Positions 3,142-59,572 of a DNA stretch of 64,000 bases are shown here, piece after piece. Positions within the stretch are counted from its first letter, which is position 1; every line of letters begins with the position of its first letter. The position numbers were made by a program, and so were the translations under genes. Below the pieces are notes generated by a model, which did no database searches, was not told the DNA's origin, and was given only the letters and a program-made list of their open reading frames with translations. Source of the DNA: Agromyces larvae (GTDB lineage: Bacteria; Actinomycetota; Actinomycetes; Actinomycetales; Microbacteriaceae); the NCBI RefSeq assembly GCF_022811705.1, contig NZ_CP094528.1, positions 1,426,001 through 1,490,000 of the forward strand, written 5' to 3'.

Positions 3142-3720
3142 CTACGCTCCCGTGCCCGCTCGACGCACCGCGTCGCGGAGCCCGTCGAGCGCGACCGGAT
3201 CGACCAGTTCGCGTATGGCGGTGAGGCTGATCGACGACGCGCCGAGATCCTCGAGGGTGCGCTTCGGGAGCACCCAGAACCGCCACGGCCGCAGGTCGAG
3301 CGGGTCGTAGGCCTCATGGCTCGTCGAGGTCTGCACGGCGAAGACGTAGACGTCGCCGCGATGGGTGGCCACGCCCGAGTATCCGGTGCGCGGATGCCAC
3401 GACTGACCGCGCAACCCGGTGAAGACGATGCGCGCGAGCTGACGTTGATCCCACGCCTGCAGGAAGGCGGCGGATTTCACCACGATCGCCAGATCCTCCC
3501 AGCGGAGGTCGACATCGTCCCACTCGACGCGCGTGGCGCGCATGCCCAGTGCACGGGCGACGAGGAACTCGGCCAGCAGGGCGCGAACCGTGTTCGTGCG
3601 CAGATCGGGGGCGGCGTAACGCCAGAAATCGATGACCTGCGCGTTTAATCCGACGAAGTCCTCATCGCCGTCGAGGGCGGGCAGGGCTGTCGGGACCAGC
3701 CAGTCGATCTGCTGCTGCAT
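3142..3720 (-). CDS. Hypothetical protein, possible PD-(D/E)XK-like fold
   Basis: A 192-residue soluble protein with no signal peptide. The stretch VRALLAEFLVARALG followed by EWDDVDL and then IVVKSAAFLQAWDQ resembles a restriction-endonuclease-like family in which the usual core is D...(E)VKSaayLQ.W. Here the acidic residue expected before VK is a valine, so catalysis may be lost or the resemblance may be only structural. The chosen ATG at 3720 lies immediately after AGGGA; an in-frame TTG at 3774 is possible but has no better ribosome site. The fold assignment is inferred from motif spacing only. Confidence 0.7.
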   Translation of the reverse strand: MQQQIDWLVPTALPALDGDEDFVGLNAQVIDFWRYAAPDLRTNTVRALLAEFLVARALGMRATRVEWDDVDLRWEDLAIVVKSAAFLQAWDQRQLARIVFTGLRGQSWHPRTGYSGVATHRGDVYVFAVQTSTSHEAYDPLDLRPWRFWVLPKRTLEDLGASSISLTAIRELVDPVALDGLRDAVRRAGTGA

Positions 3721-3819
3721 TCCCTGAGGATAGCCAGGCGGGTCACCCCCGGTCTGCCCCGCAACAGGGGGCAATCGCGGGTGCGAGGCATCCGATGCTC
3801 GCGATCGTGGAACGCCGAA

Positions 3820-36981: not shown

Positions 36982-38208
36982 GGTTATAGGCAAGAACGTG
37001 TGGATGGGATCTTGATCTCGCGGCGGAATCACGCGGCAGCACGAGTATTGTCATGGTCCGCGACCCTTAGTCGTGAACCATCCCTCGAATCAGACGCGCT
37101 GCATGGTATGCGGATCGTTGCTCGTGAAGAACGGGACGACCGCGGCCGGAACGCAGCGGTGGCGGTGCCGGGACTGCGGGGCCTCCTCCGTACGGCGACG
37201 TCCGGATGTCACCAGACGTGAGCAGTTACGCCGGTTCCTGACCTGGCTGACGGGCAAAGCATCTCAGGCCGAGCTCGGCGGCGGTACTGGACGTTCCTTC
37301 CGTCACGACACCGCCTGGTGCTGGGACCTTCAACCCCGCATGCCGATCACCGGTGAAGTCCATGACGCGGTCCTCGTCGACGGCGTCTGGGTCGGGTCCT
37401 GGTGCCTCCTGATCGCGCAATCCTCGACCGGGACCGTGATCGCCTGGCAATGGGCCGCAAGCGAGTCCACTGCCGCGTGGGAAGCCCTGTTCACCCAGAT
37501 CCCACCACCGACCGTGGTCGTCACCGATGGGGGCTCCGGGATCCGTTCCGCACTCGCGCGAACCTGGCCAGACACCAAGGTCCAACGCTGTATCTTCCAC
37601 CTGCAGATGAACGTGACCCGCGAACTCACACGCAAACCACGCCTGCACGCCGGCAAAGCACTCCGACAGATCGCGCTCGCCCTGACCGATGTCCACACGG
37701 TCGATGACGCGATCACCTGGCGGCTCACGCTCGAAGCCTGGTGGCAGAAATACGGGCACCTCACCCGAGAACGCAGCATGTACGACAACGGCCAGTTCGG
37801 GTACACCCATCACCGGCTCCGCAAAGCCTGGGTGATCCTGCACCGCGCCGCGCAAGCCGGACACATCTTCACCAACCTCGAGCACGGCAACCCAAGAGCA
37901 ACCTCACGCTTGGAAGGCCTGAACTCCCAGATCCGCAACCTCCTCCGCCACCACCGCGGCATGCCGATCGAACACCGCCGAAGGGCCGCCGAATGGTTCC
38001 TGCTCCTCCACGAGATCCCCATCGATCAAGCACACAAGCACGCCCACCAGCCCGCACCGAAACACGTCGAACCACCGACAGAAGACCCCATCGGACCCGC
38101 ACTCTACGACACCGCCCTGAGCGCCGAAGAAGGCCTCTGGACCCGCTCAGGATGGGCAGGCAGAACATGACACGCCCGACACCATCCACACGTTCTTGCC
38201 TATAAGCC
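36982..38208 (+). mobile_element. IS1249-like insertion sequence with 9-bp target duplication
   Basis: Terminal inverted repeats share 24 identical bases (36984-37007 and 38182-38205, beginning TTATAGGCAAGAACG) plus outer GG/GGC ends. The element is bounded by direct repeats GCGACCGGG at 36973-36981 and 38209-38217. One transposase gene fills it. Intact ends and matching target duplication indicate a recent, complete insertion. Confidence 0.92.
37073..38170 (+). CDS. Transposase, IS256-superfamily IS1249-like
   Basis: 365 residues. N-terminal zinc ribbon CMVCG...CRDCG (about 10-35), then a DDE nuclease core: first Asp in AVLVDGVWVGSW, second in VVVTDGGSG, and glutamate in ATSRLEGLNSQIRNLLRHHRG, the position typical of mutator/IS256-type enzymes. 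The GTG at 37073 is the first in-frame start inside the left repeat. All catalytic residues are present, so it is probably functional. Confidence 0.9.
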   Translation: MNHPSNQTRCMVCGSLLVKNGTTAAGTQRWRCRDCGASSVRRRPDVTRREQLRRFLTWLTGKASQAELGGGTGRSFRHDTAWCWDLQPRMPITGEVHDAVLVDGVWVGSWCLLIAQSSTGTVIAWQWAASESTAAWEALFTQIPPPTVVVTDGGSGIRSALARTWPDTKVQRCIFHLQMNVTRELTRKPRLHAGKALRQIALALTDVHTVDDAITWRLTLEAWWQKYGHLTRERSMYDNGQFGYTHHRLRKAWVILHRAAQAGHIFTNLEHGNPRATSRLEGLNSQIRNLLRHHRGMPIEHRRRAAEWFLLLHEIPIDQAHKHAHQPAPKHVEPPTEDPIGPALYDTALSAEEGLWTRSGWAGRT

Positions 38209-38757: not shown

Positions 38758-38831
38758 GATGCACTACGGGGTGGGGCCTGCGCATCCATCCGAGGCGGGA
38801 TCGAACCGCCGAGGGCTCGTCGTGAGTTCGT

Positions 38832-38875
38832 GTAAACCGTTTGACATTCTGGTTCTTTCGTGTAAACTAGTTTAC
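38832..38875 (+). promoter_or_regulatory. Sigma70 promoter overlapped by GTAAAC operator palindrome
   Basis: TTGACA (38841-38846), 16-nt spacer, TAAACT (38863-38868). GTAAACTAGTTTAC (38862-38875) is a perfect palindrome covering the -10 and ending at the base before the ATG; another GTAAAC lies upstream at 38832-38837. Transcription would begin at or next to the ATG. Confidence 0.75.
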
Positions 38876-39247
38876 ATGAACACGGAGACCAGCATCACCA
38901 GCCGCATCCTCGACGGCGAGATCGTCCTCACCAAGCACAACGGCCACCTCGCCATCGCAGCCCTCACCGAGAAGCTGTACGCGACCCGCCTCATCACCGG
39001 CGAGACCGCGCTCCGCCACCTCGTCACCGCGACCAACAAGGCCGGCGAGCCGGTGCCCGTCATCACCCGCGGGATCATCGGCACGACCACCGTCGAAGGT
39101 CACGCGATCACGAAGGTGCTCGTCGACGAGCAGGAGATCATGATCCCCGCGGTTGGCCGCTGCGACCACTTCGAGACCGACAACCACGGCATCTGCTACG
39201 CCTGCGGCGCATACGTCCAGGCCGACGACGCCGGCCGCTACCTCTGA
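38876..39247 (+). CDS. Phage hypothetical protein with C-terminal zinc-like motif
   Basis: 123 residues on the strand opposite most phage genes. The first 90 residues are mixed alpha/beta (RILDGEIVLTKHNGHLAIAAL, LRHLVTATNKAGEPVPVITRG). The C-terminus has CDHFETDNHGICYACG, a possible C-x-H...CxxC zinc site. The ATG directly follows the -10 region, implying a leaderless mRNA. The strong but operator-covered promoter suggests expression in the lysogen or early infection under repression. No family recognised. Confidence 0.75.
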   Translation: MNTETSITSRILDGEIVLTKHNGHLAIAALTEKLYATRLITGETALRHLVTATNKAGEPVPVITRGIIGTTTVEGHAITKVLVDEQEIMIPAVGRCDHFETDNHGICYACGAYVQADDAGRYL

Positions 39248-39268: not shown

Positions 39269-39721
39269 ATGCCCGCCACGAAGCACGGCGACGTGTACGA
39301 ACTCATCGCCGCCTACACCGCAGACCGAGAAACCCCCCGCGGCCGCCGCTGGCAGCACCTCTCGTACACGGCACCGACACCGCACGGGTGGCTCACGTTC
39401 CGACCCGATGACGGGCAGAGGTGGTGGCTGATCCTCGAGCTCCCGAAGTTCGAACTCGAGTCGTCCGGTACCGAGTACCTGCCTGCGCCCGAGATGATCA
39501 TCGAGCAGATCGACGCCCTGCTGCAGCGTGCCGCACCCGACGCGTCCGCCGCTGTCACCGATGGTCTCGAAGAGCTCCGCACCCTCGTGGGTCGGCGTGA
39601 CGAGTTGACGGCGCGTATCCAGGCGGTCGCGGTCGACACCGTGCGCGCGGGCGGGGAGAAGATCAACGTGGCCCGCGCTGCGAAGGTGAGCCGTCCCACG
39701 CTCGACAAGTGGCTGGGGTAA
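39269..39721 (+). CDS. HTH-containing phage protein, 150 aa
   Basis: Follows the previous gene by 21 bp on the same strand, so both probably share its promoter. A central amphipathic helical region (about 75-125) is followed by a C-terminal helix-turn-helix, GEKINVARAAKVSRPTLDKWL, that ends the protein at its last residue. A DNA-binding role (repressor or autoregulator of the adjacent palindrome) is inference. The last codons lie inside the first CRISPR-like repeat. Confidence 0.75.
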   Translation: MPATKHGDVYELIAAYTADRETPRGRRWQHLSYTAPTPHGWLTFRPDDGQRWWLILELPKFELESSGTEYLPAPEMIIEQIDALLQRAAPDASAAVTDGLEELRTLVGRRDELTARIQAVAVDTVRAGGEKINVARAAKVSRPTLDKWLG

Positions 39722-39892
39722 CCCCGCGAAGGCGGGGAGCACGTGACCCCTCAACTCGATAACCGGATCATCCCCGCAAGGGCGGGGAGCAGGGTACTAC
39801 TGCGAATGACACTCGGATCATCCCCGCGAATGCGGGGAGCAAAGCGATGCCGTCATAGCACACCCGGATCATCCCCGCTGAGGCGGGGAGCG
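39714..39892 (-). CRISPR. Four type I-E-like repeats with 22-23-nt spacers, no cas genes
   Basis: Repeats (28 nt each) at 39714, 39764, 39814 and 39865. The last three share CGGATCATCCCCGC, a variable tetraloop and GCGGGG, then AGC. Read on the minus strand this is the actinobacterial I-E form: TGCTCCCCGC, loop, GCGGGGATGATCCG, where ATGATCCG equals the I-E crRNA 5' handle. The 39714 repeat has a degenerate handle, as expected for a terminal (trailer) repeat. Period is 50-51 bp, against the canonical 61. Loops differ in all four copies while stems are exact. Confidence 0.7.
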
Positions 39893-39937
39893 TTGCACCA
39901 CAGACACTAGCCGCCGAGCGGATGGGCGCACAAGGCC

Positions 39938-39990
39938 GTCGGCGTAGACTGCCTGCCGCGCGGGGCCGGCGCGCCTACTCGGGGGATCTG
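39938..39990. repeat. Imperfect direct repeat, copy A
   Basis: About 50 bp matching 40585-40636: both contain CGTAGACT, GGGCCGGCGCGC and TACTCGGG followed by GATCTG. Together the two copies bracket the DUF2335-like gene. Confidence 0.7.
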
Positions 39991-40493
39991 CGGCGCGATG
40001 CCGACACGATCTGAGCCGAGGCGCCGAGGATGGCAGGGATGACGCCAGCGATCGCCGCCGCCGGGTAACCGAGAACAAGCAGCACAACGGCTGCCACCAA
40101 CCCTCCAACGGTGAGCAACTGTGCCCCGATGGCGCCCACGACAACTGCCGTGGCCTCGGCACGGGTGAGCCGCCTGATCGCATCCGCGGAGACGCGCTCG
40201 CCGTAGACGTGCGCTTCGATGATCTGGCGAGCGCTGCCCGGCACAATCTCGTCGTATGCGGCGAGAGTGCCCTCATGCGGGAGCGGCCCGCTGAACGCCC
40301 GCGCTACCTCGAGGACTTCGCTGACAGTGTCCGCGTCGCCCGCGCTCTGTCGATCGACCGCACCTTCTGCTGGCGAGAGAGCTGAAGGGCCGTCTGCATC
40401 GCCCGAAGGCGGCTCGTGTCGCCCGTCACTCCGACGAACGCCCCGTGGGAGAGACCCCGAAGCGTCGCCTTCCCCGTGCTGTTCATGCGCCAA
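39975..40493 (-). CDS. DUF2335-like membrane protein
   Basis: 172 residues from a TTG start preceded by AGGAAAGGGAAG. The core SGPLPHEGTLAAYDEIVPGSARQIIEAHVYGERVSADAIRR (about 68-108) matches DUF2335, followed by two membrane segments (about 115-160). The N-terminal ~58 residues are low-complexity with poor third-position GC, whereas an ATG at 40486 in another frame has strong coding bias, so the true N-terminus may come from that frame through a frameshift near 40310. DUF2335 proteins occur often in phages; role unknown. Confidence 0.65.
   Translation of the reverse strand: MAHEQHGEGDASGSLPRGVRRSDGRHEPPSGDADGPSALSPAEGAVDRQSAGDADTVSEVLEVARAFSGPLPHEGTLAAYDEIVPGSARQIIEAHVYGERVSADAIRRLTRAEATAVVVGAIGAQLLTVGGLVAAVVLLVLGYPAAAIAGVIPAILGASAQIVSASRRRSPE
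40304..40486 (-). CDS. Alternative-frame small ORF overlapping the DUF2335 gene
   Basis: 60 codons from an ATG 7 bp inside the TTG start, sharing its ribosome site: begins NSTGKATLRGLSHGAFVGVTGD. Third positions are about 88% G/C compared with roughly 60% for the overlapping frame. It is either a real overlapping small protein or the true N-terminus of the DUF2335 protein if a frameshift exists. Confidence 0.35.
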   Translation of the reverse strand: MNSTGKATLRGLSHGAFVGVTGDTSRLRAMQTALQLSRQQKVRSIDRARATRTLSAKSSR

Positions 40494-57290: not shown

Positions 57291-57926
57291 TTACGAGATG
57301 CCGCGCGCCTTCCGGAAGGCTTGCAGGTCGGTCATGGCAGGTTCGATCGGTGGGCCTGCTGGCGCCGCTCGGGCGACGACGCCGATCGCGTCACGCGCAG
57401 CCGGCGTCGCGCCGAGCTTCTCGAGCACGTTCATCAGATGCGGAATCAGGTACAGCGCCTTCGTCACCTGCAGCGGGTCTCCGGTCGCGGTCGCGGCGTC
57501 GATCTGCTCGGCCACACGTCGCCCGGCCGCTACGGCGGCGGCATCGATCGTCGGGAGCGAGAGCGCCTTCACCGTCTCGTCGAACGCGTTCGTCATGACG
57601 CGCTGGTCGCCAGGGATGCCGGCGAACCGCATGCGCAGCTCCGACAACCGGAGCACCCGGTCAACCGCGGTGACGTCGCCTCTCACGGCCTTCCCCCACA
57701 GGCCCGCCTGCAGCCGGTCGAGCCGGTCGAGCTCGAGGCGGCGGATATCATTCGGGTCCTCCTGCAACGCGGCGGCCGACATGCCGGCGGCGATCGCGTT
57801 CTCCGTCGCTCTTACCGAGGCGAACCCCAGCTCCTCGCGGATCCGACCGACCGGGATGCCCGCGCGGCGAAGCTCGAGCGCGCTCTGCGCCCGTTTGGCG
57901 CGCTCTGCGGCGGTCAACTTAGGCAT
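57291..57926 (-). CDS. Terminase small subunit
   Basis: 211 residues. N-terminal helix-turn-helix RAGIPVGRIREELGFASVRATENAIAAGM, then an oligomerisation helix region. Recognises the pac/cos site and stimulates TerL, which follows 14 bp later. The ATG at 57926 with GGAGG was chosen over an upstream start; it overlaps the methyltransferase end by 8 bp. Confidence 0.82.
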   Translation of the reverse strand: MPKLTAAERAKRAQSALELRRAGIPVGRIREELGFASVRATENAIAAGMSAAALQEDPNDIRRLELDRLDRLQAGLWGKAVRGDVTAVDRVLRLSELRMRFAGIPGDQRVMTNAFDETVKALSLPTIDAAAVAAGRRVAEQIDAATATGDPLQVTKALYLIPHLMNVLEKLGATPAARDAIGVVARAAPAGPPIEPAMTDLQAFRKARGIS

Positions 57927-59169
57927 CGGCTGCCTCCGTGAAGTCGACCTCGACACCGTTCCGCATTGGCACGACGCCGGTGTGCTCCTGCCAGCGACGA
58001 CAGATGACGTCCGCGTAGCGCGGGTCGAACTCGACGAGCACCGCGATCATGCCGAGATGGTGCGCGGCGATCATGGTCGTGCCCGACCCGGCGAACAGGT
58101 CCAGCACCGTCCCGCCAGGCGGGCACGAGTTCCGAAGCATCCGCTCGATCAGCTCGACGGGCTTCATCGTCGGATGCACCGCCGAGCGCTTGGGCCGCGG
58201 CACCTCGAATACCGTCGACTGCTTGTTGTCCCCGAACCACCGGACCCCCCCCCGCCCGAGCCGGCCGGAACCCCCCGGCGTGAATCCGTACAACACGGGC
58301 TCGTGCCGGTAGTGGTAGTCGGACCTGCCCAGCACGAGCGAGTCCTTCACCCAGACGAACGTCTGGCGTACCCGCACTCCAGCCGCCCGCATCGCGGCCA
58401 GGAACTCCTCCCGACCCTGCTCTGGGTGCGCCACATACACCGGCGCGCCGGGGCGGCACACGTCAACAACGACACCCATCGCCGACGCCACCAGGGCGGC
58501 AGCCTCCGAGAACGACCCATCATTCTGGATCGACAGTCTCCGGTCGGTCTTCCCGACGTACTGCACCCCGTACGGAGGGTCCGTCCACACTGCATCTGGC
58601 ACATCCCCGTCGAGCATCGCCCGCACGCCGTCAAGGTCCGCTGCGTCACCGACGAGCAGCCGGTGCACGCCCAGCTGCCACACGTCGCCGGGAGCCGAGA
58701 TCGGGTCACCCTCAGCCAGGTCCGGCGCGTCGTCCTCGTCGGTCAGCGCCACCGGCTCGTCGAGCTCACGCAGCAGCGCCGCGAGATCTGTCGAAGAGTA
58801 CCCCGTGCCGGAGAGGTCGCCGGCTTCCTGCAGCACCGCGAGCAGGTCAGCGTCGTCGTACCCGCCGAGATCCGCGATCCGGTTGTCCGCCAGAACGATC
58901 GCGGCCGCGCGCTCCTCGTCAACGTCGACGAGCACCGCCGACATCGACTCCCACCCGAGCGCCTTCGCCGCCGCGAACGTGTGATTGCCCGCGAGAATCT
59001 CGTTCGGGCGCCCCGTCAACGAACCGGCGTTGACCACGATCGGCTTGTACTGCCCGTGCCGCTCGAGCGACGCCTTCAGGGCCTCGACGTCACCCCGACG
59101 CGGGTTCCGGTGGAACGGCAGGAGCTCCGCGAGCGGCAGATCGAGCACCTGTAGCGTGACGGATTTCAT
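57919..59169 (-). CDS. ParB-like domain fused to DNA methyltransferase
   Basis: 416 residues. Residues ~1-135 are a ParB/Srx-like domain (LPLAELLPFHRNPRRGDVEALKASLERHGQYKPIVVN, ILAGNHTFAAAKALGW). Residues ~155-410 are an N4/N6 beta-type methyltransferase with TDPPYG (196-201), HPTMKPVELI and DLFAGSGTT (357-365) for AdoMet. Such fusions are frequent in phages and probably modify phage DNA against host restriction. Ends overlapping terS by 8 bp. Confidence 0.92.
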   Translation of the reverse strand: MKSVTLQVLDLPLAELLPFHRNPRRGDVEALKASLERHGQYKPIVVNAGSLTGRPNEILAGNHTFAAAKALGWESMSAVLVDVDEERAAAIVLADNRIADLGGYDDADLLAVLQEAGDLSGTGYSSTDLAALLRELDEPVALTDEDDAPDLAEGDPISAPGDVWQLGVHRLLVGDAADLDGVRAMLDGDVPDAVWTDPPYGVQYVGKTDRRLSIQNDGSFSEAAALVASAMGVVVDVCRPGAPVYVAHPEQGREEFLAAMRAAGVRVRQTFVWVKDSLVLGRSDYHYRHEPVLYGFTPGGSGRLGRGGVRWFGDNKQSTVFEVPRPKRSAVHPTMKPVELIERMLRNSCPPGGTVLDLFAGSGTTMIAAHHLGMIAVLVEFDPRYADVICRRWQEHTGVVPMRNGVEVDFTEAADA

Positions 59170-59365
59170 CGCGGGTTGACTGCCTTCCGTGTGTGATGGG
59201 GGGGGGCCAGACCACGGCGGGGAGGGAGGACGCCTGCGGGCGGGAGGCAGTCCGGCGCCCGAACGCTGTGAGATGCGACCGCCCCTCCCCCCTTGGAGAT
59301 TCACCGTGCGGCGTCGACGCGGGGTGGTCCAGCGTTCTGTCGGGCGAAGGTGGGATGCTCGGTAC

Positions 59366-59572
59366 ATGGACGTCGACAGCTTGGAGACGCAGTGCGTTCG
59401 TGCACTGGCGGAGATCCCCGATCCCGTGAGCGTGCGCGACATCAGAATGCTGATCACACCGCGCCCTACCGAGGGCGCCGTGCTCCGCGCGCTGGCTGAG
59501 CTGGTCGATGCGGGGCGTGTGGCGATCGACAATCGCGGGCTGTTCCAGTTGCGGTCGCACAGCACGCGTTAG
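59366..59572 (+). CDS. Small winged-helix-like protein on the opposite strand
   Basis: 68 residues: DVDSLETQCVRALAEIPDPVSVRDIRMLITPRPTEGAVLRALAELVDAGRVAIDNRGLFQLR has the spacing of a winged helix (helix-turn-helix then beta hairpin). It lies antisense to the surrounding operon and converges with the HNH gene with a 4-bp overlap. Could be a regulator; unsupported beyond fold pattern. Confidence 0.62.
   Translation: MDVDSLETQCVRALAEIPDPVSVRDIRMLITPRPTEGAVLRALAELVDAGRVAIDNRGLFQLRSHSTR

Follow-up and report, generated by a model that had tools for sequence, protein, structure and literature searches.

What is an array of type I-E-like CRISPR repeats with unusually short spacers doing in a prophage of Agromyces larvae? 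The stretch of 64,000 nucleotides that we analysed (the window) carries four such direct repeats on its minus strand at 39714-39893, with start-to-start distances of 50, 50 and 51 nt. An initial annotation had suggested either a decoy for Cas proteins or a trimmed mini-array. Judged from sequence, our analysis favours a putative decoy, which may inhibit type I-E systems, over a trimmed immune array, because the spacers are homologous to those of a second array in the same genome (L009), no convincing targets were found, and spacers fold on themselves across the family. The case is built on the anatomy of the array, the inheritance of its spacers, the covariation of its hairpins, a spacing mode, a leader signal and the family-wide self-folding.

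Anatomy and setting of the array

Repeat and spacer limits were set by the standard 29-nt I-E repeat (Table 1). Read on the minus strand, the array consists of three crRNA-like units with spacers of 21-22 nt, against a normal 32 nt; the annotation had rightly called the spacers short but had put them at 22-23 nt, and the lengths are 21, 21 and 22 nt. The stem CCCCGC/GCGGGG is perfect in all four repeats and the loop differs in each, as had been noted, and no other perfect CCCCGC-N4-GCGGGG hairpin occurs across the 64-kb window. A 15-base pattern with up to two mismatches had eight matches in the window, a count reached in none of 100 shuffles. The exact handle that had been ascribed to all the repeats is present in three; the trailer-end repeat keeps only its hairpin and is degenerate in the way described for it. 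Compared with the properties of I-E arrays, the window array thus lacks 32-33-nt spacers and identical repeats (it has four distinct loops) and possesses the 6-bp stem and 8-nt handle, the handle being absent in one of four repeats. Apart from the loop and the first two bases, repeats 2-4 are the same as the I-E repeat found in a relative from the same order (G096), and the identity for repeat 2 is about 82% (23/28, counted by eye). The proposed mimicry of I-E repeats holds.

Table 1. Positions of the array elements and adjoining features in the window
Feature	Position	Strand	Remarks
150-aa ORF	39269..39721	+	No PHROG or Pfam match; directed toward array; stop codon inside trailer repeat
Repeat 1	39714..39742	-	Trailer end; hairpin present, handle gone; overlaps plus-strand ORF stop codon
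Spacer S1, 21 nt	39743..39763	-	
Repeat 2	39764..39792	-	Hairpin and exact handle ATGATCCG
Spacer S2, 21 nt	39793..39813	-	
Repeat 3	39814..39842	-	Hairpin and exact handle ATGATCCG
Spacer S3, 22 nt	39843..39864	-	
Repeat 4	39865..39893	-	Leader end; hairpin and exact handle ATGATCCG
Promoter-like leader, TTGTGC-N18-TAGTGT	39904..39933	-	Directed into array; same hexamers and spacing at the L009 array
172-aa ORF	39975..40493	-	Right of array; phrog_3996 membrane protein

The leader does not match the consensus sigma-70 promoter. The surrounding region is a prophage, as first proposed: to the right of the array, at 46.4-63.5 kb, there are matches to the tape measure, portal, terminase and DnaB-like helicase families. 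We found no T-run terminator at the array, which bears on the earlier caveat that the hairpins might serve only as terminators, and tRNA and Rfam searches gave no match there; identity as a terminator, a tRNA or an Rfam family was rejected. Other features of the window include a Mutator/MULE-type transposase left of the array (37073-38170), a pair of 21-nt repeats 30 nt apart (38827-38877), the second partly palindromic, which look operator-like by eye, and a single ORF that chains ParB-like and DNA methyltransferase family matches (57919-59565).

Relatives in the same genome and in viral contigs

The second array lies at C1:1948533-1948693 of the same 4.0-Mb genome. The two loci are homologous along the array, where the best piece spans 121 nt (86.8%), and along some 45 nt on the leader side; comparison of the 64 kb of the window with 16 kb at L009 found nothing further, which indicates that the cassette travels or is swapped as one piece. 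S2 has 19 of 21 positions in common between the two arrays and S1 its first 7 nt; the spacers are therefore inherited. The other end of the L009 array carries a 7-nt remnant, GCATCGT, that by eye resembles the 3' part of S3. Among ten ORFs around L009, one matches a phage-type helicase and two match phage families without an assigned function, and we describe this neighbourhood only as phage-like.

Viral contigs were scanned evenly for two such hairpins 40-56 nt apart, which gave an unbiased basis for the spacing mode. The 110 stretches recovered contain 139 hairpin pairs, 43 of them at 49 nt and 27 at 50 nt, and every other value is represented at most 11 times; several pairs at 54-55 nt resemble unrelated inverted repeats. 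A scan at longer spacings gave the usual peak at 61 nt among the matches listed. When later scans were included and near-identical units removed, 120 units remained (34 at 49, 25 at 50, 21 at 61, 7 at 62 and 33 elsewhere). The mode at 49-50 nt lies 12 nt under the normal 61-62 nt; the window spacings of 50, 50 and 51 nt fall within it but are 10-11 nt below 61, not exactly 12. Cas7 has a footprint of 6 nt, and 12 nt equals two such footprints. A general 6-nt quantisation (at first 61, 55, 49 and 43) was rejected: the deduplicated units leave only the 49-50 and 61-62 peaks, spacings below 58 nt other than 49-50 have no 6-nt rhythm (n = 25, p = 0.62), and the 43-nt units stem largely from contigs whose spacers resemble each other. 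In the available text of two studies, the number of Cas7 subunits tracks crRNA length and I-E Cascades tolerate spacers shortened by 6 or 12 nt (PMC6828817, PMC7296934).

Relatives of the window array have two to nine repeats. BLAST gave matches in 16 records, from eight S. sanglieri phages. The arrays that we read in phages Piccadilly and Eklok have spacings of 61, 60, 58, 49 and 51 nt and that in phage ZL12 has 61 and 49 nt, and each sits between annotated genes. The viral array at L119:519-682, unlike the others read, has three identical 20-nt spacers and identical hairpins. Saccharomonospora phage PIS 136 carries four unannotated I-E-like hairpins with identical loops and a period of 61 between two genes (L408:1454-1652), a normal-spacer mini-array in a named phage. 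On a Streptomyces plasmid, a separate three-repeat array (60, 61; L407:4048-4184) has a TACGAT-box leader unlike the leaders of the adjoining CRISPR arrays, and a Streptomyces aurantiacus plasmid has many consecutive 61-nt CRISPR array blocks, with no gene there in its (incomplete) table (L404:214-5120).

Repeat statistics were drawn from 204 repeats in 61 of 86 arrays, after dropping chains of undecided orientation and then arrays in which under half of the handles were of the I-E kind or that had no 41-51 period. Departures from the stem consensus at exactly two positions occur in 22 repeats and are compensatory in 13 of these. Positions outside the search pattern also agree with the I-E repeat: a T directly precedes the stem in 83%, and the handle has its two C in 74 and 78%. 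A -10-like TANNNT box is present 7-35 nt before the first hairpin in 16/42 leaders of the first set and 10/25 of the second. Jointly, with similar leaders removed, it is found in 26/63, against a mean of 4.0 in background upstream windows, and downstream of arrays in 3/88; the remaining 37 leaders do not have it.

Folding was assessed by comparing handle plus spacer with shuffled spacers, the shuffles keeping base composition and not dinucleotides. The idea of self-folding arose by eye from the first set, and the second set, part of which had been seen previously, includes possible host arrays and loci from a 47-50 nt scan. Short units folded more strongly than their shuffles (n = 68, mean z -0.70, p = 1e-6), as did the 53-63-nt-type units of mixed arrays (n = 34, mean z -0.98, p = 2e-4). 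The controls, limited to the first 80 units per list, gave a mean z of -0.19 for ordinary 61-nt viral arrays (n = 80, p = 0.13) and of -0.22 for host arrays, whose units come from few arrays (n = 80, p = 0.2), and 41-44-nt units had no excess (n = 9, mean z -0.25, p = 0.91). Under stricter removal of similar sequences, the excess persisted in the first set for units of 46-52 nt (n = 54, z -0.59, p = 1e-4) and of 53-63 nt (n = 28, z -1.31, p = 9e-5). New short spacers (46-52 nt) repeated it (n = 21, z -0.94, p = 0.008) and new 53-63-nt units did not (n = 13, z -0.30, p = 0.45). Excess pairing of the handle appeared in one of four sets only (p = 0.042, uncorrected). The window's own three spacers fold no more strongly than shuffles (z -0.10, 1.02 and -1.04), and self-folding is thus a family trend of modest size, not claimable for the window locus.

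Host systems and spacer targets

A genome-wide search for Cas7e (PF09344), the cas family searched, found none in the 4.0-Mb genome, so the absence of cas genes claimed for the locus extends, for this family, to the whole genome. Cas7e is present in 2/60 genomes of the same genus. In one of these (G056) the arrays are ordinary 61-nt ones that share the stem but carry the handle GTGAACC, and the other (G027) has no array within 20 kb around its Cas7e. Among 39 genomes from other families of the order, six have large 61-nt arrays; their stem is like that of the window array and their handle is ATGATCC (G063, G079, G081 and G096) or GTGATCC (G092 and G097). These arrays have a period of 61, near-identical repeats and many spacers, in all of which the window array differs. 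The matching I-E arrays that the annotation had looked to relatives for therefore exist in six genomes of other families and were found neither in the genus nor in the host itself, and the mimic fits the I-E systems of the order better than those of its present genus.

In Streptomyces, 23 genomes were split by eye into 11 with phage-type arrays and 12 that were dropped. Six of the latter had arrays less than 8 kb from Cas7e, two were doubtful and without Cas7e (G765 and G802), and the rest had identical loops or simple repeats. Cas7e is present in 6/11 genomes with phage-type arrays (6/13 with the two doubtful ones) versus 151/392 overall, and carriage of the array does not clearly track type I-E. 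A class-wide sample had Cas7e in 4/4 other genomes with short spacing versus 24/148. The host link drawn from it was rejected: G392, counted among the four, is a CRISPR locus belonging to the host, and no confirmation came from the Streptomyces genomes.

The spacer search in phage genomes that the annotation had proposed gave no convincing target for the window, although short partial matches would escape it. Spacers from the window and from three further arrays, compared with 50,697 phage records, matched only repeats or arrays or did so near chance, with one exception; S1 has a Gordonia phage match at 80% and an E value of 7. The exception is a 61-nt unit of a relative (L316), which agrees with the tape-measure gene of Rhodococcus phage REQ2 (L409:301-337) at 32/37 positions, handle included, with an E value of 0.04. 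A plasmid search with the spacers matched 72 records, and the four that we read are mostly ordinary 61-nt CRISPR arrays. Comparison of the spacers with all collected array loci gave no convincing target. S2, the spacer searched in its own genome, has no other site there at up to two mismatches and two at three. Because some spacers at first had no control, the target test in each array's own contig was re-run with all arrays masked; in these partial contigs 62/132 spacers exceed controls (p = 0.33), which is no enrichment.

In one host checked (G355), seven seed hits fall within 19 kb around cas, the best of them within a spacer belonging to the host's array, possibly by chance, and the idea of cas-promoter targeting was set aside for this host. 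The same genome contains a I-E spacer that resembles a spacer of its phage-type array (L320, about 3700-3735; 13 seed positions, every sixth ignored), again possibly by chance.

Competing readings and known systems

We tentatively read the element as a multi-unit RNA anti-CRISPR, similar to the Racr described below, that would load host Cas6e and Cascade with blank guides, and we give this close to an even chance. Binding and cutting by Cas6e would follow from established I-E biology. A promoter just right of the array would produce a short minus-strand RNA and, in a host with a I-E system, Cas6e would bind and cut each hairpin to release crRNA-like pieces in which a pseudo-spacer of some 20 nt is flanked by a true 5' handle and a 3' hairpin. 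These pieces would sequester Cas6e, Cas7e and probably Cas5e/Cas8e in an undersized Cascade with about four Cas7 rather than six. As the handles are intact, the likely product would be a small Cascade with a useless guide, one that has no target and, in much of the family, folds on itself, and host crRNAs would be outcompeted. The window array has lost only the trailer handle, a dispensable part, which we count in favour of this reading. Against it stand a host without Cas7e, the carriage in Streptomyces that does not clearly track type I-E, window spacers that fold no more than shuffles, the unit classes above without a folding excess, the missing 6-nt rhythm and the 37/63 leaders without a box. 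In the available text of PMC7296934, moreover, I-E Cascades whose spacers are 6 or 12 nt shorter still support slow degradation by Cas3.

A broader proposal, on the doubtful side in our view, is that phages, those of Streptomyces and this prophage at the least, carry a class of 'blank-guide' arrays whose handled tandem crRNA mimics, mostly two Cas7 footprints shorter, would give self-pairing guides and a target-blind undersized Cascade. Such a class would act against CRISPR by complete but dud crRNAs and not by a handle-less repeat, and the 12-nt trimming would link the decoy to the architecture of Cascade. The named Streptomyces phages with arrays between annotated genes make the idea directly testable. 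The REQ2 match counts somewhat against blank guides; it slightly lowered our estimate both for this class and for the anti-CRISPR reading and slightly raised that for spacers aimed at other phages.

The main rival, which we consider unlikely, is that the units are regulatory crRNAs like CreR/CreA, their short spacers guiding host Cascade to bind, not cut, a phage promoter or one of the host, such as that of the cas operon. The intact handles and the first 7 nt of S1 kept between the window and L009 suit this explanation, as do spacers such as AGNCTNAGGGGNGT, which recur with changes in different viral contigs (by eye; the phages may be related), and CreR has been described for type I-E in the available text of PMC13131331 and PMC12737573. 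It is opposed by the lack of a seed-match excess in the partial own contigs, by an S2 whose nearest other sites in the genome have three mismatches, by the location of the best G355 hit in a host array spacer, and by self-folding, which would hinder targeting.

We regard it as improbable that the array is what is left of a host CRISPR array that a phage once captured and that has decayed and lost its function. The host without Cas7e, the missing trailer handle and the 7-nt spacer remnant at L009 would fit decay, but compensatory stems, a leader signal and a sharp 49-50 mode in many contigs would not. A shade more improbable is a structured element, RNA or DNA, that has nothing to do with CRISPR, a terminator or protein-binding iterons for example, with a chance likeness to I-E repeats. 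GC-rich hairpins between converging ORFs could be of this kind, and the folding excess could mean another structured RNA; the unsearched positions, however, follow the I-E repeat in the 204 repeats, and neither a T-run terminator nor an Rfam match was found at the array. Very improbable is an interviral mini-array that aims at other phages via the host CRISPR system, for which the REQ2 match speaks, although it also covers the handle, as does the existence of such arrays in viruses with host-identical repeats, but here most spacers are too short, the repeats are not identical and the other matches among phage records are repeats, arrays or near chance.

Our search of the open-licence literature turned up no account of phage-borne I-E arrays with short spacers, which is not proof of absence. 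The virus-borne mini-CRISPR arrays just mentioned, as portrayed in the available text of PMC11656645 and PMC6858448, have no cas genes, host-identical repeats and one or two spacers, and target mostly related viruses. The window array is like them in its lack of cas and its host-type repeats and unlike them in that all loops differ, the spacers are about 20 nt and no convincing target was found. The crRNA-like regulators CreA and CreR, in the portions available of PMC9458426 and PMC12737573, combine ectopic degenerate repeats with a resident CRISPR system and a promoter target that is matched in part; the window array has the degenerate repeats, and the promoter target and resident system were not found here. 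For CreTA, the former source reports that repeat degeneracy resists recombination (PMC9458426), and by analogy divergence of the repeats may shield arrays of the window type.

The preferred reading, an RNA anti-CRISPR, places the array closest to the Racr, which in the available text of PMC10651486 are solitary repeat units, RacrIE1 and RacrIE2 included; two I-E candidates inhibited a I-E system. The window array and the Racr are both phage-borne, intergenic repeat mimics without cas genes. RacrIF1 has no 5' handle, leaves out Cas5f/Cas8f and gives a Cas6f-Cas7f complex (PMC10651486), whereas the window array has four units in tandem, of which three keep the 5' handle, and short pseudo-spacers. 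According to the same text, SRUFinder dropped matches below 90% identity and ignored full matches that lay in clusters within 100 bp (PMC10651486), so that a class like the window array would have been passed over. If our reading is right, multi-unit crRNA decoys are a phage answer to type I-E immunity, and the survey of solitary repeats had set them aside by design.
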